Assembly (NCBI GenBank): GCA_017517305.1 | Contig: JAFWZV010000019.1 | Coordinates: 1-64,000, forward strand | Source of the DNA: Lachnospiraceae bacterium | Lineage (GTDB): Bacteria > Bacillota > Clostridia > Lachnospirales > Lachnospiraceae | Length of the DNA stretch: 64,000 bases | Reading direction: 5' to 3' | Shown: positions 5,065-26,468 of the stretch, piece after piece | Layout: every line of letters starts with the position of its first letter | Numbering within the stretch: the first letter of the stretch is position 1 | The notes under the pieces: model-generated | Seen by the model: only the letters and a program-made list of their open reading frames with translations | What the model was told of the DNA's origin: nothing | The model's database searches: none | Made by a program: the position numbers and the translations under genes

Positions 5065-6879
5065 ATGACAGATAAAATAAATGTAAGCGTTATATTTGCT
5101 ACTTATAATAGGTCTGATGTAATAGAGGATGTATTAAAAAAGTGGCGAGAAGTGGATAAGAACACAAGATATTCCTACGAGATAATATGCTCAGATGATG
5201 CATCTAGCGATAACACAGTTGAGATAATAGAGAAATTTACAGATCTGCCAATTACTATACTTAGAAACGAACATGGTGGTGCAAGTAGAGCTAGAAATGC
5301 AGCATTAAAGATTGCAAAGGGTGAAATAGTCATATTTACTGGAGATGACATTTTTCCTGACCTAGATTTTGTTAATCATCATTATGAAAACTACCTTAAA
5401 TTTGGCGATAAGATATGTACATTAGGACGTATAGAGTGGCATTCTGATGTTAAGATGAATCATCTTATGTATCATATTACTAATATTGGATGTGAACAGT
5501 TTGGCTTTGCTGGGCTTATTCCTTATGGAATTACAGATTTTAGGCATTTTTATACATCTAATATAAGTGTATCCAAGAAACAGTTGGATAAGTTGGATAA
5601 ACACTTCGACCTGACCTTTGACAGATATGGATTTGAGGATATAGAGTTAGGATATAGACTCCATAAAAATGGTGTAAGAATTTATTACGATCCTGATTTG
5701 TTGGCATATCATCATCATGTATATGCAGATGTAGATAAATTCTGTAATAGACAGATGTCAGCAGGAGACCAGATGGTAGTTTTTGCTAGCATTCATAAAG
5801 AGATAAAAAAGAATCCTATTATGGGAATAGAATTGTTTGAAAAATGCTTGCTTGATTCTGTAGATTGTTACAAGGACAAGGAATCTGTTAGAGGTAAAGA
5901 GATTCTCAAGCATTTCGAGTCAAAGAAGGAAAGAACTAGAGAACTAGAAGAATTAATTGTTAAGAATGATAAAAAGGAATATAGAGCAGAGTGTTCAGCA
6001 CTTTATAGAATGATATTCCAATTCTATATGTATTATGGTTGGGCTCTCAGATTAACAAAGGATAAAGACGTTGATGAGTCTGTAGTTGCTGAGGCAATAT
6101 ACTGCTTTATGTATCCTGGATTTAATCAGCTGTTTAGGCCGATAAATGGTGAAGTGACAGAAGAAAATTCTACAAGGTATGAGCATAGATGCTTTAAGGT
6201 GGTTATTGAAGATAATCTAGAACATGTCAAAGAACTAAGATTAGATCCATTGAATGTAAAATGCAAGGTGACTGATTTTAAGGCAAATGTGTGGAATGAA
6301 AAAGGTGCAAATAAGCAACTAAAGATTAAACTTACAAATGGAGTTAATAAGTCTTTAGATTTTACTAATATTGATGATTCTCAGATGTATTTAACTGGGT
6401 TATCAAACAAGAATAAATACAAAGTAAAAATTGAGATGAATGTATTTCCACAGTTTGACATATCAGAAAAAACTGAGTCGCTTATTGCTGAAGAGTTGGC
6501 ATTTGATAGAGACTATGTTAAGAATATCTATCAGAATCCTAAGCTTAATATCTGTATAGTGGGTGATGATAGGGAATTAATACAGACTAAGGTAGGCGCT
6601 CTTAATCAAATGTTTAATCTTATATACAACAATAATGATGTAATTGTTACAGATGAAATTTGTGAATATGAATTTAGAAGTAATTATGTATACGAGATGA
6701 AGGATACATCTGTATCCTACGAAGACTTACTGATGGTAATAAGAAAGATATATGAGGATAATATTTCAGGTATGAGACTTAGTAATGGAGATGTAATTTA
6801 CATGAATATATTATCTGATGATGAAAAGAAGAAATTAAATGTTTATAACATAACTAACAAGGAGATAAAGAATGTTTAA
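5065..6879 (+). CDS. GT2 glycosyltransferase with C-terminal beta module
   Basis: Residues 1 to about 230 form a GT2 domain: 'VSVIFATYNRSDVIEDVL', 'SDDASSDNT', 'HGGASRARNAAL' and the acidic metal-binding pair in 'FTGDDIFPD'. 'GFEDIELGYRLHKNG' corresponds to the catalytic-base region. Residues about 240-330 are charged and helical. From about 370 there is a beta-rich region with the signature LRLDP (residues 391-395), which recurs in other proteins of this locus. The GT2 call is firm; donor and acceptor are unknown. GAGGGG precedes the ATG, and the 3' end overlaps the next gene by 8 bp. Confidence 0.85.
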   Translation: MTDKINVSVIFATYNRSDVIEDVLKKWREVDKNTRYSYEIICSDDASSDNTVEIIEKFTDLPITILRNEHGGASRARNAALKIAKGEIVIFTGDDIFPDLDFVNHHYENYLKFGDKICTLGRIEWHSDVKMNHLMYHITNIGCEQFGFAGLIPYGITDFRHFYTSNISVSKKQLDKLDKHFDLTFDRYGFEDIELGYRLHKNGVRIYYDPDLLAYHHHVYADVDKFCNRQMSAGDQMVVFASIHKEIKKNPIMGIELFEKCLLDSVDCYKDKESVRGKEILKHFESKKERTRELEELIVKNDKKEYRAECSALYRMIFQFYMYYGWALRLTKDKDVDESVVAEAIYCFMYPGFNQLFRPINGEVTEENSTRYEHRCFKVVIEDNLEHVKELRLDPLNVKCKVTDFKANVWNEKGANKQLKIKLTNGVNKSLDFTNIDDSQMYLTGLSNKNKYKVKIEMNVFPQFDISEKTESLIAEELAFDRDYVKNIYQNPKLNICIVGDDRELIQTKVGALNQMFNLIYNNNDVIVTDEICEYEFRSNYVYEMKDTSVSYEDLLMVIRKIYEDNISGMRLSNGDVIYMNILSDDEKKKLNVYNITNKEIKNV

Positions 6880-10489: not shown

Positions 10490-11854
10490 ATGAGTAAGAA
10501 GTATACAATAGTAGCAATAATAATGAGCTTGTTAATTGCTCTTTTTCTTGGGGCGGTAATGCCGAAGGAATTGATATATAGACAGGGTGATATCAGTTTT
10601 AATATTAGTATGCGAGTTGATAACTTAACAACAGTAAAGATATATTACTTGGAAAGTGAAGATGAGGAATTCTCAGAGGCGAAATGTGTATCTAAGAAAG
10701 TGGAAGCTAGTCCTGAATTTAAGGACTATATCTTTGATTTACCTGTTAAGGGAGTTAAGGTGTTACGTATTGACTGTGACACGGAGATTGAATTTTGGGA
10801 TATAGAAAGTATTACTGTGGATGTAGATGGTGAAAAGACTGTTTATAATCCTAACCAGATAGATCTATATGACAAGAATGATATACCTGCTGTAGCTGTT
10901 TCAGAGGGATATATTACATTAAGAACTGGTGATTCAGATCCTTATTTAGTGACTAAATGTGATTTTGTAGCCACGATAGATAAGAGTTTGGATTATCGCT
11001 TGATAGTAATGTCTGTTGCATTTGTTGTGTTACTTTTAGTTATGCTGTGCAACAAGAAAATAATAATTGATATGCTTATGGGCATATGGGCGGCAAGAAA
11101 GCAGATTAAGTCTTTGGCAATCAGTGACTTTAAAAGTAGGTTCTCGGGTTCCTATTTAGGTGTGTTCTGGGGAGTTATCCAGCCAATTATGACAATACTT
11201 TTGTTCTGGTTTGTATTCCAGGTGGGCTTTAGGTCGCAGCCTATATCTAATGCCCCATTTATATTATGGTTGGTAGCAGGTATGATACCTTGGAATTTCT
11301 TTTCGGATGCATGGTTAAATGGTAATAATTCTTTTACGGGATATAGCTATATTGTTAAAAAATTAGTGTTTAATATTGATATTCTGCCGGTAGTAAAGAT
11401 TCTTGCCTCATCAATAATGAACATTATATTCAACTTAATTATTATTGTAGTATATGCATTGTATGGTAGAATCCCAGTTATTCACCTTATCGATATGTTA
11501 TATTTTTCTCTGTGTTTAACACTTTTGGCATGGGGACTTTCGATGATTTCAGCTACACTCAATGTGTTTATGAAGGATGTAGGACAGTTTTTGAGTATAG
11601 CAATGCAGTTTATTATGTGGTTAACTCCGATAATGTGGGATTATAATATGATACCTGTTAGTCTGAGTTGGTTATACAAAATCAATCCATTGTTTTATGT
11701 CATTAACGGATATAGAGATGCGTTGATTGATGGCAAATGGTTCTTTAGCAATTTTTATATGATGTTATGGTTCTGGGCGATAACGATAGCTGTTAATGTG
11801 GTAGGAATTAGATTAATGAAAAAATTAAAACCACATTTTGCTGATGTATTGTAA
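10490..11854 (+). CDS. ABC-2 polysaccharide export permease with extra N-terminal extracytoplasmic domain
   Basis: Membrane subunit of a Wzm/TagG-type exporter. The C-terminal part (residues about 200-454) is an ABC-2 permease with six hydrophobic segments and 'GSYLGVFWGVIQPIMT', 'NPLFYVINGYRD'. It is unusual in starting with one membrane segment (about 5-22), an outside-facing beta-rich domain of about 150 residues containing LRID (92-95), and a second membrane segment (about 168-187) before the normal permease. Standard permeases are 250-280 residues. The extra domain could handle glycan emerging from the channel; this is inference. The ATPase gene follows after 14 bp. Confidence 0.87.
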   Translation: MSKKYTIVAIIMSLLIALFLGAVMPKELIYRQGDISFNISMRVDNLTTVKIYYLESEDEEFSEAKCVSKKVEASPEFKDYIFDLPVKGVKVLRIDCDTEIEFWDIESITVDVDGEKTVYNPNQIDLYDKNDIPAVAVSEGYITLRTGDSDPYLVTKCDFVATIDKSLDYRLIVMSVAFVVLLLVMLCNKKIIIDMLMGIWAARKQIKSLAISDFKSRFSGSYLGVFWGVIQPIMTILLFWFVFQVGFRSQPISNAPFILWLVAGMIPWNFFSDAWLNGNNSFTGYSYIVKKLVFNIDILPVVKILASSIMNIIFNLIIIVVYALYGRIPVIHLIDMLYFSLCLTLLAWGLSMISATLNVFMKDVGQFLSIAMQFIMWLTPIMWDYNMIPVSLSWLYKINPLFYVINGYRDALIDGKWFFSNFYMMLWFWAITIAVNVVGIRLMKKLKPHFADVL

Positions 11855-11868
11855 TTTGAGGTGTTTAT

Positions 11869-13158
11869 ATGAGTACGAATGTAATAACTGTAAAAAACTT
11901 GACTAAAATGTATAAACTTTACGATAATCCTATGGATAGATTAAAGGAGGCATTTAGTAGAAAAGGCAATATTAGATATAAAGAACATTATGCATTGCAG
12001 GATGTAAATTTCACTGTTAAGCAGGGAGAAACTGTGGGAATAATTGGAACAAATGGTTCTGGTAAGTCTACAATTTTAAAGATAATCACAGGTGTACTTA
12101 CTCCTACAGAAGGAACTGTTACAGTAGATGGTAGAATTTCGGCATTACTTGAATTAGGTGCAGGCTTTAATCCGGATTATTCAGGAATAGATAATATTTA
12201 TTTAAATGGCACTATGCTTGGATACTCTAGGGAGGAAATGACAGAAAAACTTGATGATATAATTGAATTTGCAGATATAGGAGAATTTATTCACCAGCCT
12301 GTAAAGACTTATTCAAGTGGTATGTTCGTGCGACTTGCTTTTGCTGTTGCTATTAATATTGAGCCAGAGGTGCTTATTGTTGATGAAGCATTATCCGTGG
12401 GCGATGTATTCTTCCAAGCGAAATGCTTTAGAAAATTTGAGGAGTTTAAAGCACAGAATAAGACTATATTATTTGTTAGTCATGATTTGGGTAGCATTAA
12501 TAAGTACTGTGATAGAGCGATCTTACTGAATAAGGGTCATGTAGTAGAAGAAGGTACACCTAAGGATATAATTGATATTTATAAGAAGATTCTTGTTAAT
12601 CAGTATGATGAGGAATCAATTGAAAAGCAAGAAGAAGGTGCAGAAATTGATGAGACAAGCACCGAAACAACATATAATGATGGGGTGCTGTGGAAAACAC
12701 ACTTTAATACAAATCAAAGTGTTGTAGAATATGGTGATAAACGTGCGGAAATCATTGATTTTTGTATGATGGATTCAAATAAAGTTATAACTAACAATAT
12801 AGAAAAAGACAAAGATTTTTATATTAAAATGAAGGTCAAATTTAATGGGACAATACAGGAACCTATATTTGCGTATACAATAAAGGACAGAATGGGTAAT
12901 GATTTGACTGGTACGAATACTTTATATGAAAATATTGAGGTTGGTACTAAAAAAGAAGGAGATATCGTTGAAGTTACTTTTAAGCAGGTTATGACACTTC
13001 ATGGAGGAGACTATCTGGTATCTCTAGGATGTACAAGCTATGAGCATATGGATTTTGTAGTGTACCATAGATTATATGATGCATTTAATATAATGGTTAT
13101 GTCTGAAAAGAATTCAGTAGGATATTTTGACTTAAACAGTAAGATTACACTTAAATAG
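11869..13158 (+). CDS. ABC transporter ATPase with C-terminal glycan-binding-type domain (Wzt-like)
   Basis: ATP-binding subunit of the polysaccharide exporter. Walker A is GTNGSGKST (residues 60-68), the signature YSSGM begins at 148, and Walker B is 'VLIVDEAL' with D172 and E173. After about 250 residues of NBD there is an acidic linker and a beta-rich C-terminal domain to residue 429 ('YTIKDRMGNDLTGTNTL', 'LVSLGCTSYEH'). This resembles the Wzt C-terminal domain that in E. coli O8/O9a recognises the capped end of the O-antigen. TagH-type ATPases for teichoic acid lack this form. With the next two genes it suggests cap-dependent export. Confidence 0.92.
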   Translation: MSTNVITVKNLTKMYKLYDNPMDRLKEAFSRKGNIRYKEHYALQDVNFTVKQGETVGIIGTNGSGKSTILKIITGVLTPTEGTVTVDGRISALLELGAGFNPDYSGIDNIYLNGTMLGYSREEMTEKLDDIIEFADIGEFIHQPVKTYSSGMFVRLAFAVAINIEPEVLIVDEALSVGDVFFQAKCFRKFEEFKAQNKTILFVSHDLGSINKYCDRAILLNKGHVVEEGTPKDIIDIYKKILVNQYDEESIEKQEEGAEIDETSTETTYNDGVLWKTHFNTNQSVVEYGDKRAEIIDFCMMDSNKVITNNIEKDKDFYIKMKVKFNGTIQEPIFAYTIKDRMGNDLTGTNTLYENIEVGTKKEGDIVEVTFKQVMTLHGGDYLVSLGCTSYEHMDFVVYHRLYDAFNIMVMSEKNSVGYFDLNSKITLK

Positions 13159-13175
13159 ATTATGTGGAGGCAAAG

Positions 13176-14102
13176 ATGAGTGAGTGTGTTGGAAATGTAA
13201 AATTAAATTACGATTTTTACTCTGGGGCAGATCTCTATTCTGATGGCAAGGTTGAGGATGAGTTATTATCTATAGTAACCAATTATGAGGAAGAGAAATA
13301 TAATGGGATAATTGCTAGGGAAAAAAGATGGCCGATATTATATCACTTATCTCATATTAGACAAAATATTATAGAGTGGTATCCTTTTAATGGCACTGAG
13401 AGGGTTTTGGAAATTGGTGCGGGATGTGGTGCTATTACTGGTGCGTTGGCTGCTAAGTGTAATAGTGTTACCTGTGTAGAGCTGTCAAAGAAGAGAAGTC
13501 TTATTAATGCAAATAGAAATAAGAAATATTCAAATATTGACATTATTGTAGGGAATTTTCAAGACATAGAGCCTAAGCTTCCGGAGAATTATGATTATAT
13601 TACTTTGATTGGTGTTTTAGAATATGCGGCATCTTATATCAGCAATGCCGAAGACTCATATAAAGAATTTATTAACATAATCAAAAAGCATTTAAAACCG
13701 GAAGGCAAACTGATTGTTGCTATAGAAAATAAGTATGGTTTAAAGTATTGGGCTGGTTGCAAAGAGGATCATGTCAGCGCATACTTTGAAGGTATAGAGG
13801 GTTATACACATACTAAAAGCGTAAAAACATTCTCAAAAAAAGGATTGGATAATTTGTTTACAGCATGTGGGATGAAAGTAGAACAATTTTATTATCCTTA
13901 TCCCGACTATAAATTACCACTTGAAATATATTCAGATGAGTACTTACCTAAACAGGGAGAGCTAAATAACAATCTTATAAATTTAGATAATGAGAGGATA
14001 CTATCTTTTGATGAGGCTAAGGTATACGATAGCTTGATTGAGGATGGAATGTATACAGAGTTTGCTAATTCATATTTGCTGGTTGTAGGTAAGGAGGCAT
14101 AG
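13176..14102 (+). CDS. SAM-dependent methyltransferase, possible chain-cap enzyme
   Basis: Class I methyltransferase fold: motif I is 'VLEIGAGCGAITGAL', followed by 'VTCVELSKKR' (acidic end of strand 2) and 'YDYITLIGVLEY' (motif IV region). About 308 residues. The ATG at 13176 is preceded by GGAGG with a 5-nt spacer; a GTG 12 bp earlier overlaps that ribosome site and is unlikely. The stop is one base before the next ATG, so this gene and the kinase-like gene are tightly coupled. By analogy with WbdD, whose methyltransferase domain is followed by a kinase domain, it may cap the glycan end. That role is inferred from context. Confidence 0.82.
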   Translation: MSECVGNVKLNYDFYSGADLYSDGKVEDELLSIVTNYEEEKYNGIIAREKRWPILYHLSHIRQNIIEWYPFNGTERVLEIGAGCGAITGALAAKCNSVTCVELSKKRSLINANRNKKYSNIDIIVGNFQDIEPKLPENYDYITLIGVLEYAASYISNAEDSYKEFINIIKKHLKPEGKLIVAIENKYGLKYWAGCKEDHVSAYFEGIEGYTHTKSVKTFSKKGLDNLFTACGMKVEQFYYPYPDYKLPLEIYSDEYLPKQGELNNNLINLDNERILSFDEAKVYDSLIEDGMYTEFANSYLLVVGKEA

Positions 14103-14103
14103 G

Positions 14104-15783
14104 ATGGATAGAATTATATATACAAAATATTCCAATGAGCGTGATACTAGGTTACGTATAAAAACGCATATAATGGAAAGTGAAAAACAAAGATATATAC
14201 TTAAGTTGCCTATGACAGATGCAGCCCAATTACATATTGATTCGATATACAATATGTATAATATGTTGACTGAATTATATTCAGGAACAAGTATAAAAAT
14301 AAACAAATGTATCCCATATGATAAAGGGATAAGGTTTGAGTTTTTAGATGGGATTACCTTTGAAGAAATATTGGATGAGCATCTTGCCAGAAAAGATTTT
14401 CTGGGAATTATAGATTTAATAAGAGAATATAAATCTAAACTTCTAGACAGGATTTCTACCAAACAATTTATTCCCACAGAGGGATTTAATCGAGTGTTCG
14501 GCAATGTTGATTTGAACAAATCCTTGGAAGCAGTTTCTGTAGCAAATATTGATTTGATTTTTAGTAACATAATTGTAGACAAAGATAACGAGTGGAACAT
14601 TATAGATTATGAGTGGACCTTTGCGTTTGAGGTACCTATTAATTTTATTTTATACAGAGCGATATGTGATTATTTATACCGTTCAAATAAAAGAGATGAA
14701 CTGTGGCATTTGGAATTATTACAGTTATTTGGAATAGATGAGACTGAGAAAAAGATATATCAGGAAATGGATAGAGCTTTTCATAAATATGTAAGTGGCG
14801 ACACAAAATCACTGGCTCAAATTAATGAAAATGTTAATAATACAAAATATATTGTAAAGGATTTACTTACAACATATATACCTGGACAAGTTCAGGTGTT
14901 TTATGATTATGGTGAAGGGTTTTCGGAGGATAATTCTGAGTTTGTTAATTGTTTAAAAGATGAACAGGGTATGTATAAGTTGTCAATAAATAGACTTGAT
15001 AATGTCAAGTCTGTTAGAATTGACCCTACAAATCAGTGCTGTTTAGCAAGAATAAGCGACTTTAAAATAAAAAAAAGCGAATATAGTCAAAATGATGAAA
15101 TAATTGAGAATACATTTTTTAATAACGGTGTTGAGATAGGGGAGTCGCTGTTTGCTTACAATACCGATGATCCTCAATGGGTGTTGACTGAAATAGATGA
15201 TACTTTTACTGAAATAAATATTTCTTTTTCTTTGTCATGCGTTAGCCCTGAGATGATTGGGATATGCATAGAAGAATATAAAAAACAAAATGATGAAGTT
15301 GCGAAGTTAGTAAAACAAAATGATGAAATACCAAAGTTAATAAAGCTTAATGAAGATTTTTTGCAAAGAGAGCAGCAGATGAATATTGAACTTGATAATC
15401 GTTTAGTTGAGCTAGAACATAGACAGGAGGAAATCAACAATAGGGATAGGATAATAATAGACCAAAATAGACAAATAAATGAGAAGGATATTGAATTGGA
15501 TAATCGTTTGGTAGAGTTGGATAATCGCATGAATGTAATTAATGATAGGGATACCCTTATTTGTGAAATGAAAAACCAGTTGCATGAAAAGGATATTGAA
15601 CTGGATAATAGATTAAAGGAATTAGATAATCGTATGAATGTTATTAATGATAAAGAAAGGACTATACGAGAACTGAGTGACGAAAATCACAAGTTAAGGT
15701 TGCTTATAGAAGGATATAATAATTCTACGTCATGGAAATTGACAAAACCCATTCGACAGGTTGGAAATATAATTAAAAAATAA
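14104..15783 (+). CDS. Kinase-like protein with beta module and long repeat coiled coil (WbdD-like ruler candidate)
   Basis: Residues 1 to about 240 resemble the aminoglycoside-phosphotransferase/choline-kinase fold. 'NIDLIFSN' supplies the D150-x4-N155 catalytic-loop pattern and 'IIDYEW' the metal-binding D168 and E170. Residues about 255-400 are beta-rich with VRIDP at 304-308. From 427 there are three 35-residue units (five heptads each, starting IELDNR) forming a coiled coil. The end, 'SWKLTKPIRQ' plus a basic tail, resembles C-terminal segments of glycan enzymes that sit on the membrane. Methyltransferase, kinase and coiled coil are the parts of WbdD, here in two genes beside a Wzt-like ATPase. 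Kinase activity and ruler function are inferred. Confidence 0.75.
   Translation: MDRIIYTKYSNERDTRLRIKTHIMESEKQRYILKLPMTDAAQLHIDSIYNMYNMLTELYSGTSIKINKCIPYDKGIRFEFLDGITFEEILDEHLARKDFLGIIDLIREYKSKLLDRISTKQFIPTEGFNRVFGNVDLNKSLEAVSVANIDLIFSNIIVDKDNEWNIIDYEWTFAFEVPINFILYRAICDYLYRSNKRDELWHLELLQLFGIDETEKKIYQEMDRAFHKYVSGDTKSLAQINENVNNTKYIVKDLLTTYIPGQVQVFYDYGEGFSEDNSEFVNCLKDEQGMYKLSINRLDNVKSVRIDPTNQCCLARISDFKIKKSEYSQNDEIIENTFFNNGVEIGESLFAYNTDDPQWVLTEIDDTFTEINISFSLSCVSPEMIGICIEEYKKQNDEVAKLVKQNDEIPKLIKLNEDFLQREQQMNIELDNRLVELEHRQEEINNRDRIIIDQNRQINEKDIELDNRLVELDNRMNVINDRDTLICEMKNQLHEKDIELDNRLKELDNRMNVINDKERTIRELSDENHKLRLLIEGYNNSTSWKLTKPIRQVGNIIKK
15382..15696 (+). repeat. Three 105-bp in-frame repeats encoding five-heptad coiled-coil units
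   Basis: Units start at 15382, 15487 and 15592, each 105 bp (35 residues, five heptads). Each begins (N/D)IELDNRL and the first two end in NEK or HEK. Unit number would set the coiled-coil length. The copies have diverged at silent positions, so the array is not freshly duplicated. Confidence 0.9.
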
Positions 15784-18095: not shown

Positions 18096-18878
18096 TTGAA
18101 GGTAGTTATTTTAGCAGGAGGATATGGAACTAGAATATCAGAAGAGTCACAGTTTAAACCTAAGCCAATGATTGAAATTGGGGGAAAACCAATTTTGTGG
18201 CATATTATGAAGGAGTATTCATATTATGGATTTAATGATTTTATAATATGTGCAGGTTATAAGCAGTATGTAATTAAAGAGTGGTTTGCAGATTATTTCC
18301 TTCATAACAGTGACATAACATTTAACTTCACTAATGGAAAAAATGAAATGACAATTCATGAGTCACATATGGATCCTTGGAAGGTTACTGTTGTTGATAC
18401 TGGACTCAATACAATGACTGGTGGACGTGTAAAGAGAATTCAAAAATATGTAGGGAATGAGCCATTTATGCTGACCTACGGAGATGGAGTATGTGATGTT
18501 AACATAGCTAAATTGCTTGAGTTTCACAATGATCATGGTAAAATTGCAACACTCACAGCAGTTTTTCAGGAGCAGCAAAAGGGAGTGTTGGATATAGGTG
18601 GAGATAATGCAGTAAAATCTTTTAGAGAGAAGAATCTCTCTGATGGGGCACCAATCAATGCGGGATATATGGTGTTACAACCTGAAATATTCGATTTTAT
18701 TGAAGGTGATTGTACTGTGTTTGAAAAGGAACCATTGGAGCAGTTGGTAAATAGGGGTGAATTAATGTCATATATGCATAAAGGTTTTTGGCAATGTATG
18801 GATAATTCAAGAGAAAAATTGATGCTTGAAAAACTATTAGAGTCAGGGACTGCACCATGGAAGAAGTGGAAAGATTAG
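18096..18878 (+). CDS. rfbF: Glucose-1-phosphate cytidylyltransferase
   Basis: RfbF makes CDP-glucose from CTP and glucose-1-phosphate, the first step to CDP-activated deoxysugars. The nucleotidyl-transfer motif 'LAGGYGTRISEES' lies at residues 6-18, followed by 'KPKPMIEIGGKPILWHIM'; 'TYGDGVCDVN' is the metal-binding region. The 260 residues match the family. Translation appears to start at TTG 18096, with AAGGGG eight nt upstream and no better ATG. The 144 bp before it hold no gene and no clear terminator or promoter. The next pathway enzyme, rfbG, lies 6.5 kb downstream with four unusual enzyme genes and one GT2 gene between them. Confidence 0.94.
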   Translation: MKVVILAGGYGTRISEESQFKPKPMIEIGGKPILWHIMKEYSYYGFNDFIICAGYKQYVIKEWFADYFLHNSDITFNFTNGKNEMTIHESHMDPWKVTVVDTGLNTMTGGRVKRIQKYVGNEPFMLTYGDGVCDVNIAKLLEFHNDHGKIATLTAVFQEQQKGVLDIGGDNAVKSFREKNLSDGAPINAGYMVLQPEIFDFIEGDCTVFEKEPLEQLVNRGELMSYMHKGFWQCMDNSREKLMLEKLLESGTAPWKKWKD

Positions 18879-18887
18879 GAGATAAAG

Positions 18888-19877
18888 ATGGTAGAATCAA
18901 AAAAAGTAAGTATAGTTATTCCTGCATATAATGAAGAAGAAAATATTAGACCAGTGACAGAGGCTGTAGTTGATGAAATTAAGACAAATTTACCTGAATA
19001 TGATTATGAAGTTCTTATAATTGATAATTGTTCTCAAGATAAGACACAAGCTATTGTGCGAGAATTATGTAAGGAAAACGAAAAGGTAAAAGCAATTTTT
19101 AATGAAAAGAATTTCGGACCAGATAGTTCTCCGTATTATGGACTTATGCAAGCATCAGGAGATTGTGCTATTTTGTTTTGCGCAGATTTTCAAGATCCGT
19201 TAGAGATGATTCATAAAATGGTTCGTGAATGGGAAAAAGGATATACAGTGGTTACAGCAATAAAAACTGAAAGCAAGGAGAATAAATTAGTAAGATTTTT
19301 GAGGACCGTATATTATAAAATGATTAAGAAAATTTCTGACACGGAGATAATTGAGCATTTTACAGGGTTCGGTTGCTATGATCAGAGTTTTCTTCAAATT
19401 TTGAGAGACTTAAATGATCCCGTTCCGTTTTTGAGAGGTGTAGTTGCAGAATTTGCTGGTAATAGAAAAGCTATAGAATATGAACAGCAAAAGAGGAGAG
19501 CTGGAAAGAGTCACATAAAATTTTTCACTTTGTATGATATGGCAATGAGAAGTATTACATCGTATACAAAAATTGGTTTACGAATGTGTACTTTTTTGGG
19601 GTTTGGAGTAGCAGGTGTAAGTGCAATTATTGCATTCATATATCTAATACGAAAGCTGATACATTGGGAATCTTTTGGATTTGGGATTCCTGTTATACTT
19701 ATAGGAATGTTTTTTATAGGTGCTATACAGCTGATTTTCATGGGCTTTATGGGAGAGTATATATTAACCATTAATCAAAGAACTATGAAAAGACCTTTGG
19801 TAGTTGAAAGGGAGCGTATTAATTTTGATAATAGAGGTAATGGAGATGAAGACAGAACAAGTATGGAAGAATACTAG
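18888..19877 (+). CDS. GtrB-type GT2 (polyprenyl-phosphate sugar transferase) with two C-terminal membrane segments
   Basis: Resembles dolichol-phosphate-mannose synthase and bactoprenol glucosyltransferase GtrB. The GT2 core (residues 1 to about 215) has 'VSIVIPAYNEEENIRP', 'IIDNCSQDKT' and the acidic motif 'FCADFQDPLEMI'. Two membrane helices follow at about 232-253 and 262-287, ending in 'MGFMGEYILTINQRT', typical of the family. It would attach a sugar to polyprenyl phosphate on the inner face, to be flipped by a GtrA-type protein. AGGAG precedes the start. The 3' end overlaps the next CDS by 32 bp. Confidence 0.87.
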   Translation: MVESKKVSIVIPAYNEEENIRPVTEAVVDEIKTNLPEYDYEVLIIDNCSQDKTQAIVRELCKENEKVKAIFNEKNFGPDSSPYYGLMQASGDCAILFCADFQDPLEMIHKMVREWEKGYTVVTAIKTESKENKLVRFLRTVYYKMIKKISDTEIIEHFTGFGCYDQSFLQILRDLNDPVPFLRGVVAEFAGNRKAIEYEQQKRRAGKSHIKFFTLYDMAMRSITSYTKIGLRMCTFLGFGVAGVSAIIAFIYLIRKLIHWESFGFGIPVILIGMFFIGAIQLIFMGFMGEYILTINQRTMKRPLVVERERINFDNRGNGDEDRTSMEEY

Positions 19878-20853
19878 TGTTTTGGTTACAGGTGCAACGG
19901 GATTGATTGGTAGTGCATTAGTTGATTCGTTAGTTTGTATAGGAGCCAATGTGACGATATGTGGAAGAAATGAAGAAAAAATAAAACTTATTTTTAAGAA
20001 AGAAATTAGTGAGAATAGGATAAAGTATATTGTTACAAATGTATCAAGTGGTTTGCCAGAAATAGATGATGACTTTGATTTTATATTTCATGCAGCGAGT
20101 CCAATATCTGGTGCAGAAATCAAACTAAACCCTGTTGATACTATTGAAGCAAATTTGTCAGGGTGTAGAAGTTGTTTAGAATATTTAAGGAAACAGCAAC
20201 TTAAAAAGGGCAAAAAAGGAAGGTTAATAGTCTTTTCCTCAGCAACAGTATATGGTAACCATTTTTCGGAAGATTATATAGCTTCTGAGGAAAAAACCAA
20301 TGATACTGATACGCTAGATTCGGACAACGCTCCATATTCTGAGTCGAAACGTATGATTGAAGTATTGTCTAGAGCATATTATAAACAATATGAAGTTGAT
20401 TCAGTAATTGTTCGAATTGGTTATGTGTATGGATATTCTAAGAGTATGCCCAATACAGCATTTTATGAGTTTATAAAAAAAGCCATTAATGGAGAAAAAA
20501 TCACTCTAAATAATTCAGGAATGGGTAGACGTGATAATATATATGTTGAGGATGTAGTAGATGGCTTGATGACAGTTGCAGTGCATGGAGTTTCTGGTGA
20601 GGCATATAATATTTCTTCTGGAAATGATATGGGAAATTTTAGTGCAATTGATGAGATTGCTGACGTTATTGCAAAGTGTGCATATGAACTAAATATAAAT
20701 GAACATTCATCAGCAGAAGTTAAACCTATGACAGAGCCAAGGAAACCCGGTTTGATTTTAGATAATTCAAAAATAAAAGAATTAGGATGGTGTGTTAAGA
20801 CTGAATTAAAAGAAGGGATAATGTCAACTATCAAGTTATATATTAATGATTAG
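19846..20853 (+). CDS. NAD(P)-dependent extended SDR, sugar epimerase/reductase
   Basis: Nucleotide-sugar SDR with GATGLIG at residues 16-22, serine region 'FSSATVYGN' and catalytic Y164/K168 in 'YSESK'. 'GRRDNIYVEDVVDGLM' and 'DNSKIKELGW' are typical of dTDP- or CDP-glucose dehydratase-type SDRs. About 335 residues. I place the start at ATG 19846, after AGAGG; an upstream TTG at 19804 has no good site. Being between rfbF and rfbG, it probably acts on the CDP-4-keto-6-deoxy sugar or its branched product, as YerF does for yersiniose. That substrate is inferred. Confidence 0.82.
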   Translation: MKTEQVWKNTSVLVTGATGLIGSALVDSLVCIGANVTICGRNEEKIKLIFKKEISENRIKYIVTNVSSGLPEIDDDFDFIFHAASPISGAEIKLNPVDTIEANLSGCRSCLEYLRKQQLKKGKKGRLIVFSSATVYGNHFSEDYIASEEKTNDTDTLDSDNAPYSESKRMIEVLSRAYYKQYEVDSVIVRIGYVYGYSKSMPNTAFYEFIKKAINGEKITLNNSGMGRRDNIYVEDVVDGLMTVAVHGVSGEAYNISSGNDMGNFSAIDEIADVIAKCAYELNINEHSSAEVKPMTEPRKPGLILDNSKIKELGWCVKTELKEGIMSTIKLYIND

Positions 20854-20905
20854 TTTACTCATTCGAAATTATGTAGTGATAATATATCTAAATTAAGGAG
20901 AGAAC

Positions 20906-21940
20906 ATGCAAGGGACAATAAAAATACTGGATTGTACATTGAGAGATGGTGGACAAGGTTTAGAAGCCATAAATAACAATGGTATTATAACTGAGTCTTT
21001 TTCAGAGCAGGATAAGGAAAACATTATAAGAAGTACACGTGATGCTGGGATAGATATAATAGAAATTGGATGTATGAGCTCTAACAGCAGAGGCCAAGAA
21101 GGATATGCAATTTATAATAATGTGATAGATTTATCTAAGTCATTACCACAAGAACGTGGACAAAATCAGTTATATACGGGATTATTTATAGATCCCGATA
21201 CACCTATTGAGTCTATTCCAAAAGCATCAGAGGATTTGGTAGAGGGTATAAGAGTAATTTTAAGATACTCTCAATTACAACAATCTGTTGATTTTTGTGC
21301 CATGTTGGCGGATAAAGGGTATAAAGTTTTTATTCAGCCGATGTTGACAATGAGGTATACGGATGATGAGTTAAAAATGTTAGTGTCATCAGCTAACGAG
21401 ATGGGGGCGTATGCGTTATATTTTGTTGATAGTTTTGGTTATATGACGGAAAATGATGTTGATAGATTTTATAATTTTTACTGTGAAGATTTAAATCCAT
21501 CGATTAATATAGGTTTTCATGCTCATAATAATATGGATAACGCATTTATTAATGCCAAGTATTTTGTTGATAAGCTTTCGGATAGAAATCGTATAGTTGA
21601 CTCATGTGCCTTTGGTATGGGTCAAGGGGCAGGTAACTTGCAAACAGAAATACTTGTAAATTATATGAACAAGCATTATGGAACATCTTATGGCTTTGAT
21701 AAAATATTGGACGTATGTGAAATACTCGAAAAATTCAGAGAAGAGGATATGAAGACATGGGGGTATACCCCATTAAGATTCATTCCAGCAATTCATAATA
21801 CGGCTTATAAGTATGCTACTGTTATGCGTTCAAGATTTAATATGACATTAAAAGAAATAAATATGGTACTGGAAAAAATGCCGGATGAGCTTAGACATAG
21901 GTACACAGAGGAAAACTTAAAAAATATTTTAGGTAGTTAA
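20906..21940 (+). CDS. DRE-TIM (HMGL-like) aldolase/metallolyase
   Basis: TIM-barrel metalloenzyme of the HMG-CoA lyase/4-hydroxy-2-oxovalerate aldolase group. The N-terminal motif DCTLRDGG lies at residues 9-16 (R13, D14), and the metal-binding HAHNN at 205-209. 'FGMGQGAGNLQTE' matches the loop after the metal site. Known members cleave or form C-C bonds with pyruvate or acetyl-CoA. 344 residues fits the aldolase branch. The gene lies 2 bp before an acetolactate-synthase-like gene, and a partner acetaldehyde dehydrogenase, normal for catabolic 4-hydroxy-2-oxovalerate aldolases, is absent. A biosynthetic role making a 2-keto acid for sugar branching is my inference. Confidence 0.82.
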   Translation: MQGTIKILDCTLRDGGQGLEAINNNGIITESFSEQDKENIIRSTRDAGIDIIEIGCMSSNSRGQEGYAIYNNVIDLSKSLPQERGQNQLYTGLFIDPDTPIESIPKASEDLVEGIRVILRYSQLQQSVDFCAMLADKGYKVFIQPMLTMRYTDDELKMLVSSANEMGAYALYFVDSFGYMTENDVDRFYNFYCEDLNPSINIGFHAHNNMDNAFINAKYFVDKLSDRNRIVDSCAFGMGQGAGNLQTEILVNYMNKHYGTSYGFDKILDVCEILEKFREEDMKTWGYTPLRFIPAIHNTAYKYATVMRSRFNMTLKEINMVLEKMPDELRHRYTEENLKNILGS

Positions 21941-21942
21941 AG

Positions 21943-23613
21943 ATGAAGGTTGCAGATTTTATAGTAAAAAAATTAATTGAATATGGTGTTACGGATGCGT
22001 TTGGTATTCCTGGTGGAGTAGTCCTAAGGTTAATTAATGCAATGAAAGAAATGGAACCAGAAATCACTCCACATTTGTGTTATCATGAGCAGATGGCTGG
22101 ATTTGCAGCATGTGGTTATGCGCAGGCGAGTGGGAGATTAGGTGTTGCTTATGCCACAAGAGGTCCTGGAATACTCAATATGGTTACTAGTATTGCAGAG
22201 GCTTATCAAGAAAGCATTCCTGTTCTTTTTATTACAGCACATGGAAATAGAACGAACAACGAACTTAGATTTGAATATAACCAAGAAATAGATGTGGTAG
22301 CAGCATGTGAAAAATTCACAAAATATGCTGCTAACATTGAAACCATAGAAGATGTTTCAATGTTGGTTGATATGGCTCTGAAAAGTGCTTTAGATGGGCG
22401 AAAGGGGCCTGTACTTTTGGATTTTGCTACAACTTTATTTGATAAGGAAATAACAGAATATATAAGTGAAAAACAAGAACTGAGCACAAAACAAGAAGAT
22501 GTAGATTCCATAGCACAAGAAATAGGTAAAAAATTATCATTATCTAATAGACCAATTGTATTAATTGGAGATGGTTTAAGATATACAGAAAATACAAACG
22601 CAATAATTGAATTTTTCACCAATATGAACATACCAATTATTTCAAGTAGAGGAAGTCAGGATCTCGCTGTATGGTCATCAAATTATTTTGGATATGTTGG
22701 TAGCCATGGAGTTAGATATGCTAATTTTATTCTATCAAAAGCAGATTTGATTATTGCAATAGGAAATAGGTTGGCTTTTCCAATACAATCCGAGAGCTTT
22801 GGACCTATATTTCAAAATGCAACGCTGATTCGATTAGATGTAGATGATGATGAATTAAAAAGAAATATTCCAAATAGTATAAATTATTTAATTGATGTGT
22901 CATCATTAGGTGAGGAGTTAAATAAAATATCACAATATTGTAGTAAAGACTTTAATACATGGATAAAAATATGCAGAGAAATAAAAAATGAATTATTTGA
23001 TTGTGATTGTACACAACCAGTGACCCGAATAGCTGATTTTATTAAATGCGCAAAAAAAGAGGAAGTCGTATATGTATGTGATGTTGGAAATAATGAGTTT
23101 TGGTTTTCGCGAGCATTTGAAAAAGAGCACCCATATGGACAAGTTTTATGTTCGAAATCATTTGGTACTTTAGGAGTAGCCATAGGACGTGCGATTGGAG
23201 CCTATTATGCTACAAGAAAAAGGATCATTTGTGTGATTGGAGATCAAGGATTTCAGTATAATGTTCAAGAATTACAGTATATATCGCAATGGAAATTGTC
23301 AATATGCGTAGTTGTGATTAATAATGAAATCTCAGGAATGATATGTGACCATGAGAAAAAATCATTAAAAAATAGTATTCATGTTTCAAAAGAAAATGGA
23401 TATATGGCTTTGGATGTTGCAAAAATTGCCAAGGCATATGGCATCCCATTTGCTAATGAAATGGATGAGTTAAACTTAGATGGTCCTATGATATTTGAAA
23501 TAATGATAGACAAAACAATTGAGTTAACACCAACGCTTCCTAAGGGTAGAAAAATTCAAAATATGTATCCTGATTTGGATTGTTCACTAGAAGATAAGCT
23601 CAATGGATTATGA
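21943..23613 (+). CDS. ThDP-dependent acetolactate-synthase-like enzyme
   Basis: Full three-domain ThDP enzyme of 556 residues. The Pyr domain carries E49 in 'CYHEQMAGFAACGYAQ', the glutamate that activates ThDP, and 'ATRGPGILN'. The central domain spans about 190-330. The PP domain has the ThDP-binding stretch 'GDQGFQYNVQELQYI' ending in NN 27 residues on; the usual GDG reads GDQ. In sugar pathways, YerE-like members of this superfamily transfer an activated aldehyde from pyruvate onto a CDP-keto sugar. No acetolactate-synthase small subunit or ilv genes are nearby. Placement between rfbF and rfbG supports a C-C branching role on a CDP sugar; the substrate is unknown. Confidence 0.85.
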   Translation: MKVADFIVKKLIEYGVTDAFGIPGGVVLRLINAMKEMEPEITPHLCYHEQMAGFAACGYAQASGRLGVAYATRGPGILNMVTSIAEAYQESIPVLFITAHGNRTNNELRFEYNQEIDVVAACEKFTKYAANIETIEDVSMLVDMALKSALDGRKGPVLLDFATTLFDKEITEYISEKQELSTKQEDVDSIAQEIGKKLSLSNRPIVLIGDGLRYTENTNAIIEFFTNMNIPIISSRGSQDLAVWSSNYFGYVGSHGVRYANFILSKADLIIAIGNRLAFPIQSESFGPIFQNATLIRLDVDDDELKRNIPNSINYLIDVSSLGEELNKISQYCSKDFNTWIKICREIKNELFDCDCTQPVTRIADFIKCAKKEEVVYVCDVGNNEFWFSRAFEKEHPYGQVLCSKSFGTLGVAIGRAIGAYYATRKRIICVIGDQGFQYNVQELQYISQWKLSICVVVINNEISGMICDHEKKSLKNSIHVSKENGYMALDVAKIAKAYGIPFANEMDELNLDGPMIFEIMIDKTIELTPTLPKGRKIQNMYPDLDCSLEDKLNGL

Positions 23614-23626
23614 TGGAGGGAAAAGA

Positions 23627-25384
23627 ATGTTTGTTGAAAAAATTAATTCGCCTAAAGATTTAAAGGCACTAAGTATTGAAGAATGCAAGGTTTTGGCAAG
23701 CGAAATAAGACAAACTTTAATAGAAAGAATGTCAAAGAGAGGAGGGCATCTTGCATCTAATCTCGGGATGGTGGATGCAACTATAGCTTTGCATTATGTG
23801 TTTGATTCCCCAAAGGATAAAATTGTATTTGATGTTTCTCATCAGTGTTATACACATAAGATATTAACAGGAAGAAAAGATTCATTTTTATATGAAGACA
23901 AATATGATAATGCTAATGGATATACCAATCCTCTAGAAAGTGAGCATGATTTGTTTCGAGTAGGACATACTGCAACATCTATAAGTTTAGCGTGTGGTTT
24001 GGCAAAAGCACGAGATATTAATGGAGAAAAAGAAAATGTGATAGCAGTCATAGGAGATGGTTCTATGAGTGGTGGCGAAGCATTTGAGGGATTGGATTTT
24101 GCTGGTTCTGATATAGATGGAAATTTGATTGTATTATTTAATGATAATCAAATGTCTATAGCGGAGGATCACGGAGGAATATACAAGAATTTAGCGGAGT
24201 TACGTAGTACGGAAGGTAAAGCAGAAAACAATTTGTTTAAAGCGTTTGGTTTTGACTACAGATTTGTGAAAAATGGTAACGATATTTGCGAGTTAGTTGA
24301 AGCGTTAGAAAGTGTAAAAGATATAAATCGTCCAGTTGTTGTTCATATGTGTACTGTAAAGGGTAAGGGGTACAGATACTCTGAAGAGAACAAAGAAAGT
24401 ACACATTGGGTGCGACCATTTGATATAGAGACTGGTGATGAGAAGAATCCGTTTAGCGGAGAACGATATGATAGAATTGTAAGAGATCATTTAATTGATA
24501 AAATGAAGAATGATTCTAAAGTTGTTACAATGATAGCTGCCGTTCCAGATGCTCTAAATTTTACTGAGGAACATAGAAAGATGGTAGGAAAACAGTTCGT
24601 TGATGTAGGGATTGCGGAAGAACACGCGATATCTATGGCAGCAGGTCTTGCAAAAAATGGATGTAAGCCCGTTTTTGCTACTATGTCAACCTTTTTTCAA
24701 AGAACCTATGACCAGATTTCACAGGAATTGTGTATAAATAATGCTGCAGCGACACTGATTGTTGTAAATGCATCAGTATATGCTGCAAATGATGTTACTC
24801 ACATAGGAATATTTGATATTCCTATGATGTCAAATATCCCGAATTTGGTGTATCTTGCACCGACGAACAAGCAGGAATATTTGGCTATGATAGATTGGAG
24901 TTTAGACCAACAGGATTATCCAGTTGCGATTAGGGCACCTCGAAATGGTGTGTTTTATGCTAGTGAAGATGTAGAAACTGATTATAGCGATTTGAATAAG
25001 TATAAGGTTGTTAAATCAGGCGAAAAAGTAGCTGTTATGGCATTAGGTGATTTCTTTCAGATGGGAGAAGAACTAGTTGAAGAAATTGAGACTAAATATG
25101 GCGTAAAAGCAACACTAATCAATCCAAGATATATAACTGGGTTTGATTATGAACTATTTGAATCTTTGAAGGACAAGCACGATATAATAGTAACATTAGA
25201 GGATGGTGTTCTTGATGGAGGATGGGGACAGAAGATTGCAAGCTACTATGGGCCAAGTGAGATTAGAGTAATGAATTATGGATTGAAGAAGGAATTTCTT
25301 GATAGATATAATGTTAATGAAGTGATGGAAAGAAATCATTTGAGACCAGATTTGATTTTACAAGATTTAGATAAAATTATTTAA
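23627..25384 (+). CDS. 1-deoxyxylulose-5-phosphate-synthase-like ThDP enzyme (divergent paralogue)
   Basis: The sequence follows DXS closely: 'GGHLASNLGMVDATIALHY', 'HKILTGR', the ThDP motif beginning GDG at 143-145 with 'GSMSGGEAFEGLD', 'IAEEHAISMAAGL' with catalytic E331, and 'MSTFFQRTYDQ'. It is shorter (585 against about 620), and the region equivalent to the DXS acceptor-phosphate site, usually DRAG...PTH, reads 'NASVYAANDVTHIGIFD', losing the arginine. It may therefore use a non-phosphorylated acceptor such as a nucleotide sugar. The start is ATG 23627 after GGAGGG; an earlier ATG at 23603 lies inside the previous gene. Ordinary isoprenoid DXS remains an alternative but is less likely in this context. 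Confidence 0.82.
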   Translation: MFVEKINSPKDLKALSIEECKVLASEIRQTLIERMSKRGGHLASNLGMVDATIALHYVFDSPKDKIVFDVSHQCYTHKILTGRKDSFLYEDKYDNANGYTNPLESEHDLFRVGHTATSISLACGLAKARDINGEKENVIAVIGDGSMSGGEAFEGLDFAGSDIDGNLIVLFNDNQMSIAEDHGGIYKNLAELRSTEGKAENNLFKAFGFDYRFVKNGNDICELVEALESVKDINRPVVVHMCTVKGKGYRYSEENKESTHWVRPFDIETGDEKNPFSGERYDRIVRDHLIDKMKNDSKVVTMIAAVPDALNFTEEHRKMVGKQFVDVGIAEEHAISMAAGLAKNGCKPVFATMSTFFQRTYDQISQELCINNAAATLIVVNASVYAANDVTHIGIFDIPMMSNIPNLVYLAPTNKQEYLAMIDWSLDQQDYPVAIRAPRNGVFYASEDVETDYSDLNKYKVVKSGEKVAVMALGDFFQMGEELVEEIETKYGVKATLINPRYITGFDYELFESLKDKHDIIVTLEDGVLDGGWGQKIASYYGPSEIRVMNYGLKKEFLDRYNVNEVMERNHLRPDLILQDLDKII

Positions 25385-25400
25385 ATTGAGAGGGACTACG

Positions 25401-26468
25401 ATGAAGTTTAGTAAAGAATTTTACAATGGAAAGAAAGTATTAATAACAGGACATACAGGCTTTAAAGGGACTTGGATGTGTCAATTGCTTATTATGGTTG
25501 GTGCTGAAGTGACAGGCTATGCCTTAGAACCGCCAACAACCCCTTCCTTATTTGATATGGTTGGATTGAAAGATAAGGTTAATTCAATTATTGGAGATAT
25601 TAGAGACCTCGAAAAATTGAAAGAAGTTTTTGATAATGTTAAGCCAGAAATAGTTATTCATATGGCTGCCCAACCAATTGTTAGGGATTCGTATAAGAAC
25701 CCAGTATATACCTATGAGACTAATGTTATGGGAACTGTAAATGTATTAGAGTGCGTAAGACAGACACCATCAGTAAAATCCTTTGTAAACGTAACAACAG
25801 ACAAGGTGTACTTAAATAAGGAATGGGAGTGGGGATACCGTGAGAACGAGGAATTAAATGGGTATGACCCATATTCTAATTCAAAGTCATGCTCCGAGTT
25901 AGTTACAAGCAGTTATATTAACTCCTTCTTCAATGATATGGATGTAGCTATCTCTACAGCTAGAGCAGGTAATGTAATAGGTGGTGGTGATTTTGCTCCA
26001 GATAGAATTATACCTGATTGTATTAGAGCAGCAGAGAATAAAGAGAACATAATAGTAAGAAATCCTTTTTCTACCAGACCTTACGAGCACGTGTTAGAGC
26101 CAGTGGTTGCTTATCTTATGATTGCAAAGGCTCAATATGAGGATAAAACCTACGCAGGCAACTACAATGTAGGTCCAGATGATACTGATTGTTGGACAAC
26201 CGGTGAGTTAGTAACCTTGTTCTGTGATAAGTGGAATGCGGCTACTGGTGATGGAATCAAGTGGGAGAACAAATATGATGGTGGACCACATGAGGCTAAT
26301 TTCTTAAAGCTAGATTGCTCAAAGCTAAAGAAAACCTTTAACTGGAATCCTAGATGGCACGTGGAAGAGACTATGGAGAAAATAGTTGAGTGGTCAGTGG
26401 AATACCTTAGAGGTGGAGATGTTGCTGAGTGTATGAAAAAGCAGATTAGAGAGTTTTTGAATAAATAA
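25401..26468 (+). CDS. rfbG: CDP-glucose 4,6-dehydratase
   Basis: Makes CDP-4-keto-6-deoxyglucose from CDP-glucose, the step after RfbF. The NAD-binding motif is TGHTGFKG near residue 15, with 'DKVYLNKEWEWGYREN' and the catalytic 'YSNSK' (Y158, K162), all characteristic of RfbG. 355 residues. ATG 25401 follows GAGAGGGA; an in-frame TTG at 25386 overlaps the ribosome site. Codon choice (many AAG) is closer to the flanking core genes than to the AT-rich genes just upstream. No ascC/ascD-type 3-dehydratase is present, so the final sugar probably keeps its C3 oxygen. Confidence 0.95.
   Translation: MKFSKEFYNGKKVLITGHTGFKGTWMCQLLIMVGAEVTGYALEPPTTPSLFDMVGLKDKVNSIIGDIRDLEKLKEVFDNVKPEIVIHMAAQPIVRDSYKNPVYTYETNVMGTVNVLECVRQTPSVKSFVNVTTDKVYLNKEWEWGYRENEELNGYDPYSNSKSCSELVTSSYINSFFNDMDVAISTARAGNVIGGGDFAPDRIIPDCIRAAENKENIIVRNPFSTRPYEHVLEPVVAYLMIAKAQYEDKTYAGNYNVGPDDTDCWTTGELVTLFCDKWNAATGDGIKWENKYDGGPHEANFLKLDCSKLKKTFNWNPRWHVEETMEKIVEWSVEYLRGGDVAECMKKQIREFLNK

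Follow-up and report, generated by a model that had tools for sequence, protein, structure and literature searches.

The methyltransferase gene at 13164-14102 and the kinase-like gene at 14104-15783 of a Lachnospiraceae bacterium contig quite likely encode, in two parts, a chain terminator of the Klebsiella pneumoniae O7 type, here in a Gram-positive organism. The pair together probably caps a surface sugar chain and so helps to set its length. The pair is a real, conserved module; its split Gram-positive form is new, and the kind of terminator it represents has been known since 2024. The window, i.e., the whole stretch of DNA that was analyzed, covers 64,000 nucleotides of contig JAFWZV010000019.1 (assembly GCA_017517305.1; contig C19 here), and the genome to which it belongs comprises 2.72 Mb in 25 contigs.

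The genes lie on the forward strand in the order Wzm-like permease, Wzt, methyltransferase, kinase-like protein, and GtrII-type membrane protein. An earlier note, made from the sequence of the window, had described the open reading frames (ORFs) of Wzt, the methyltransferase, and the kinase-like protein, together with a one-base gap between the last two, and all were found where it placed them. The methyltransferase stop codon TAG occupies 14100-14102 and the kinase ATG begins at 14104, with an AAGGAGG sequence ending six bases ahead of that ATG. Because of this spacing and this site, the methyltransferase and the kinase are made as two polypeptides. The features are given below, with motif invariance stated for profile A1, which consists of the 30 best hits and was not chosen by motif, and for 80 named loci, a set retrieved by searching for DYEW[TS]FxF, in which the kinase was located by D[YF]EW.

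10490-11854, + strand: Wzm-like exporter permease (ABC2_membrane PF01061, 1.6e-19, residues 205-412)
11869-13158, + strand: Wzt-like ATPase with C-terminal Wzt_C (ABC_tran PF00005, 5.7e-25; PF14524, 4.5e-38)
12727-13134, + strand: Wzt_C domain, the proposed cap reader (PF14524, 4.4e-39 at those bases)
13164-14102, + strand: methyltransferase, O7-type, with an intact S-adenosylmethionine (SAM) motif E83-x-G85-x-G87-x-G89 (Methyltransf_12, 2e-10)
14091-14097, + strand: AAGGAGG ribosome-binding site of the kinase gene, within the methyltransferase gene (read directly)
14104-15783, + strand: ORF of the kinase, beta-sandwich, and coiled-coil protein, 559 aa
14104-14838, + strand: kinase-fold domain, residues 1-245
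14551-14568, + strand: catalytic loop D150-x4-N155 (invariant in 30/30 of A1 and 79/79 named loci)
14605-14613, + strand: metal-binding motif D168-x-E170 (invariant in 30/30 of A1 and in 79/79 of the DYEW-picked loci)
14887-15243, + strand: beta-sandwich domain, like a carbohydrate-binding module (CBM), residues ~262-380 (alignment to fused profile A2; model of fused relative L039)
15361-15714, + strand: coiled-coil region, residues ~420-537 (heptad test; L039 model)
15388-15702, + strand: 35-residue unit of five heptads in three tandem copies, residues 429-463, 464-498, and 499-533
15715-15780, + strand: C-terminal segment with NSTSWKLTKPIR, similar to the one that follows the coiled coil of WbdD

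As a single sequence, the kinase-like protein had no kinase match in Pfam (none over the cut-off), NCBIfam, or the PDB, and profile A1 returned chance-level rows only from the PDB, the best being JAK1 at E 0.52. In the absence of a single-sequence Pfam or PDB match, the kinase claim was one of motifs until a structure model was compared with solved structures by VIA-align over Foldseek's top 1000. The closest solved folds, among the matches listed, were those of aminoglycoside, macrolide, and choline kinases; WbdD did not figure in the 50 rows displayed, an absence that carries no weight for or against kinship. The model supports an aminoglycoside phosphotransferase (APH)/choline-kinase fold with a Lys, Asp, Asn, Asp catalytic set; together with the conserved catalytic residues, which include both motifs named by the earlier note, it bears out the choline-kinase-like reading proposed there. 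Because a DYEW pattern served to select the named loci, the invariance of D168, E170, and W171 among them is partly due to selection; that of Lys34, Asp150, and Asn155 is free of this effect. Residues 2-408 of the window protein align to A2, the L039 model places beta-sandwich strands at 575-686, and an immunoglobulin (Ig)-like/CBM domain is accordingly modeled after the kinase. A relative at L044:8001-9806 seemingly has two copies of the beta-sandwich followed by a shorter coiled coil, and a glycosyltransferase encoded at 5065-6879 of the window shows, over its residues 355-476, a weak similarity (E 0.005) to that portion of the terminator profile which covers the beta-sandwich.

Among described enzymes, the terminator of K. 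pneumoniae O7, and not WbdD of Escherichia coli O9a, comes nearest. The O7 terminator, ORF6-O7, was reported in 2024 as a methyl-phosphate terminator with kinase and methyltransferase activity in vitro, and its D441A variant blocks capping and export (PMC11231755). The methyltransferase profile, A3, matched gammaproteobacterial proteins, one from P. asturiensis (3.5e-53) and one from C. braakii (3e-54), each encoded directly after Wzm-Wzt genes; the E values of these profile comparisons assume a nominal database size of 100,000. The P. asturiensis protein, of 1457 aa, carries Y28, Y66, G91, G93, E112, and Y158 at the exact O7 numbers, with D443 against the O7 catalytic D441. A2 matches it twice, at 1e-59 and, across the catalytic loop and the beta-sandwich, at 2.6e-5, and its FIDAVPQN...IDVEW parallels NIDLIFSN...IDYEW of the window protein. 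The catalytic Asp of the divergent kinase domain, the counterpart of O7 D441, is present. For WbdD, the sequence from E. coli HS was used, in which the published WbdD residues were verified. Here A3 gave E 120, which is not significant, A1 reported no domain (full-sequence E 770), and no reliable alignment was obtained at the phosphate-methylation residues His132, His133, and Arg203. Orthology with WbdD was ruled out, as neither catalytic domain matches it by profile. What survives of the WbdD-like capping enzyme in the earlier note is thus the logic of methyltransferase, kinase, and coiled coil beside a Wzt, and not the sequence kinship.

The C-terminal domain that the earlier note assigned to Wzt is also real. 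Besides its PF14524 score, bases 12640-13155 match PDB entries 2r5o (4.9e-5), which we take to be the E. coli O9a Wzt domain, and 8dky (1.2e-5) in a sequence search, and the transporters 8dku/6o14 are matched by sequence as well. The kinase domain and Wzt_C each have one match in the genome, at the window locus. A survey of 299 genomes of the family, with Wzt_C counted at E 1e-5, found the kinase domain in 153 and Wzt_C in 176: both in 147, kinase only in 6, Wzt_C only in 29, and neither in 117 (Fisher p 1.3e-46). Roughly half of the species sampled carry the pair, split or fused. Of the 153 kinase-positive genomes, 147 also have Wzt_C. The refuting results named by the earlier note that lay within reach of computation, such as occurrence of both genes mostly away from Wzt-type exporters, did not appear. 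At a Wzt_C cut of E 1e-37 or better, which was set after inspection of the list, the kinase is found in 144/147 genomes, and in 3/29 of the remaining ones. Two of the three high-scoring exceptions have a divergent pair right after Wzt or a contig ending inside the methyltransferase. Three of the six kinase-only genomes were inspected; of these, G076 shows Wzm plus a Wzt fragment on the margin of the stretch, and G279 stops at a contig end.

Within 1.5 kb on each side of the 30 best loci (window included), the methyltransferase was present in 30/30 and a Wzt match in 25/30. Among 108 lower-ranked genomes, Wzt_C lay within 3 kb in 88 and within 6 kb in 98; in 10, none of the places listed had both on one contig. 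The named loci have the methyltransferase in 79/80 and an upstream Wzt match in 75/80 (weak in L054), 68 of them within 250 bases of the methyltransferase. The recurrence of the gene pair beside Wzt_C across the family is more than chance. Among genomes drawn from across the phylum, 7/398 gave a match to the kinase profile, four of them from the same family as the window; the look outside Bacillota covered two plasmid records.

From the computed domain identities, motif conservation, gene linkage, O7-type kinship, and separate translation start, we infer the enzymatic steps, the cap chemistry, cap reading, two-protein assembly, and ruler action as follows. In the cytoplasm, the kinase would phosphorylate the non-reducing end of the lipid-linked glycan, and the methyltransferase would methylate the terminal phosphate, upon which growth would stop. 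Wzt_C would then recognize the cap, and Wzm/Wzt would export the chain. The beta-sandwich may hold the glycan, and the long coiled coil, together with the SWK segment at the C terminus, may keep the catalytic head off the membrane and the polymerizing glycosyltransferases, which would impose a minimum length.

In the coiled coil of the window protein, the hydrophobic excess at a/d positions over residues 420-545 was reached by 0/2000 shuffles; the heptad pattern of residues 385-420 alone was no better than chance (966/2000 shuffles). In the L039 model the coiled coil is one helix, 689-777. An NCBIfam lead from this region to PRK00846 and SMC was set aside as coiled-coil similarity. The three 35-residue copies at 429-533 show 35% self-identity, reached by 0/2000 shuffles that kept heptad positions, at any heptad-multiple shift. 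DNA identity at shift 105 is 50%, which marks the duplication as old. When measured with a composition rule devised for this analysis rather than with a published predictor, the coiled-coil-like stretch of the window protein (126 residues) is the longest of 81, the next being 84 and the median 31; 22/81 proteins have none, including L091 and L112, which are cut by contig ends. In two Clostridium relatives, the coiled coil is coded by in-frame 21-bp units, each a heptad: 8.0 copies in C. weizhouense (L045:9164-9332) and 3.8 in C. puniceum (L039:9174-9252). Coiled-coil length in these two could change by slippage. Tandem Repeats Finder located 21-bp arrays after the kinase in these 2 of 80 loci, with other periods elsewhere, e.g., 22 bp in L093. 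After the coiled coil, [ST]xxW[KR]x[YTV] occurs in 35/71 tails (33 relatives, the window protein, and WbdD) with 0.1 expected by shuffling, a count inflated by relatedness for a motif written after inspecting the sequences.

These data bear on a rival that we rate as possible, a little short of an even chance: the pair would cap and release the chain without measuring it, length would be set elsewhere, and the coiled coil would only dock the enzyme to the membrane or to glycosyltransferases. The absence or shortness of the coiled coil in most proteins and the recurrence of the C-terminal W[KR] segment, which suggests docking, favor this; the long coiled coil of the window protein (about 118-126 residues) with its five-heptad units and the 21-bp in-frame arrays of the Clostridium relatives speak for a measuring role. 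Of the ruler proposed in the earlier note, the coiled coil is confirmed. As a trait, such a ruler belongs to the window protein and to part of its relatives and does not extend to the whole family, and ruler action in the window protein is plausible.

The two-gene form, which the earlier note regarded as a new variant, is a real split in the window and no single oddity. A tree of 79 rows, built by a quick method without L080 and L109 and with 16 forks left open, holds 42 fused and 37 split forms. Interchange between them needs 12 tree changes, seven forced by well-supported branches, and 0/500 shuffles came as low, so that the state is clustered but not of single origin; the fused form of C. 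puniceum and the split form of C. weizhouense are sisters at 100. A sequencing error as the source of the split was ruled out by the kinase gene's own AAGGAGG and by split forms in the isolates Clostridium weizhouense and Blautia hansenii. A Shine-Dalgarno-like site precedes the start codon in 32 of 36 other split loci (18 of five bases or more; four without), a raw count without a chance control. Single split or fused calls in some assemblies may be wrong. Five fused relatives (L064, L074, L082, L083, and L096) have lost the SAM-binding glycine motif with the kinase residues intact; judged from these sequences, they are candidates for phosphate-only caps.

In E. coli O8, and reportedly with Geobacillus WsaE, methylation is directed at a hydroxyl of the sugar. 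A comparable arrangement, with the kinase acting on another residue of the same glycan, would suit two separate genes and the five damaged relatives, which show that the two activities can part; we consider it unlikely in view of the homology to O7-type proteins, whose reference enzyme methylates phosphate, and of the repeated fusion of both domains. Still less probable is that the kinase protein, instead of terminating the chain, modifies the glycan along its length by choline-kinase or aminoglycoside-kinase chemistry: the closest solved folds listed would fit, but the O7 precedent and the presence of the kinase in nearly all high-scoring Wzt_C genomes, with two of the three exceptions holding the pair or its start, argue against it.

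Several observations weigh against an O7-type terminator that caps and measures. The kinship with the O7 enzyme runs through the P. asturiensis protein, which shares O7 numbering, and not through the O7 sequence. A1 does not match that protein significantly (whole protein 0.048, best domain 0.45), and the C. braakii kinase region is unmatched by the profiles, with LDAIPSN present but EREW bearing Glu in place of the second Asp. The third high-scoring exception, G295, has the same Wzt_C class and no pair within 9 kb, and G188 has the pair and no Wzt within 12 kb. The damaged SAM motifs imply that methylation is not universal, and the proteins devoid of a coiled coil count on the same side. A fuller version of the O7-type reading, in which two translationally coupled subunits reassemble into the enzyme, length is tuned by whole heptads, and sister lineages with a dead methyltransferase make phosphate-only caps, is offered as a tentative proposal that we would not yet favor.

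Two side observations concern the surrounding genes. The permease has a long N-terminal extension of ~200 residues ahead of its ABC2 domain. The cluster also includes rmlC, a hint at rhamnose in the glycan. At 18096-26468, CDP-glucose genes (TIGR02623, TIGR02622) flank aldolase-like, acetolactate-synthase-like, and DXS-like enzymes, which perhaps constitute a branched sugar pathway.

If the two-subunit, heptad-tuned reading is true, about half of the species of the family would export length-controlled, phosphate-capped surface glycans. O-antigen terminator logic would then also run in a large family of gut bacteria, where the cap would be a predictable, testable chemical mark. The split, fused, ruler-less, and methyltransferase-damaged members amount to a natural experiment on the parts of the enzyme responsible for length and for the licensing of export, and on the need for the two catalytic domains to reside on one chain.

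Among known systems, ORF6-O7 is the closest. Like it, the window pair has a methyltransferase, an unannotated kinase with an AmiN-like fold, an Ig-like/CBM domain, and a coiled coil in the same order beside an ATP-binding cassette (ABC) exporter; unlike it, the pair is two genes in a Gram-positive host and the window protein has no glycosyltransferase modules, which some relatives do have. The groups named in the O7 paper are alpha- and gammaproteobacteria and cyanobacteria, besides a single archaeon, and it nowhere uses the term Gram-positive (PMC11231755). Searches of an open-access library, from which subscription papers are mostly absent, listed no Gram-positive methyltransferase-kinase terminator. 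APH(3')-Ia, AmiN, and LicA differ in that their substrates are small molecules, and identity to them is 10-16% among the matches listed. WbdD shares the order of methyltransferase, kinase, and coiled coil, a neighboring Wzt with a C-terminal domain, and an SW[RK]xTK segment after the coiled coil; in its published description, it is a single gene with no domain between kinase and coiled coil (PMC3482155). The Geobacillus S-layer glycan system is likewise Gram-positive and Wzm/Wzt-exported; terminal methylation by WsaE, giving a 2-O-methyl cap, is proposed to halt growth, and unlike in the window pair, the methyltransferase is fused to two glycosyltransferases, without a kinase (PMC2943079). Finally, the C. 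difficile SLCT-11 S-layer glycan combines a Gram-positive host and ABC export with a phosphate-bearing terminal sugar, 2,3-cyclophosphoryl rhamnose, for which its authors propose an O9a-like role (PMC6254364).

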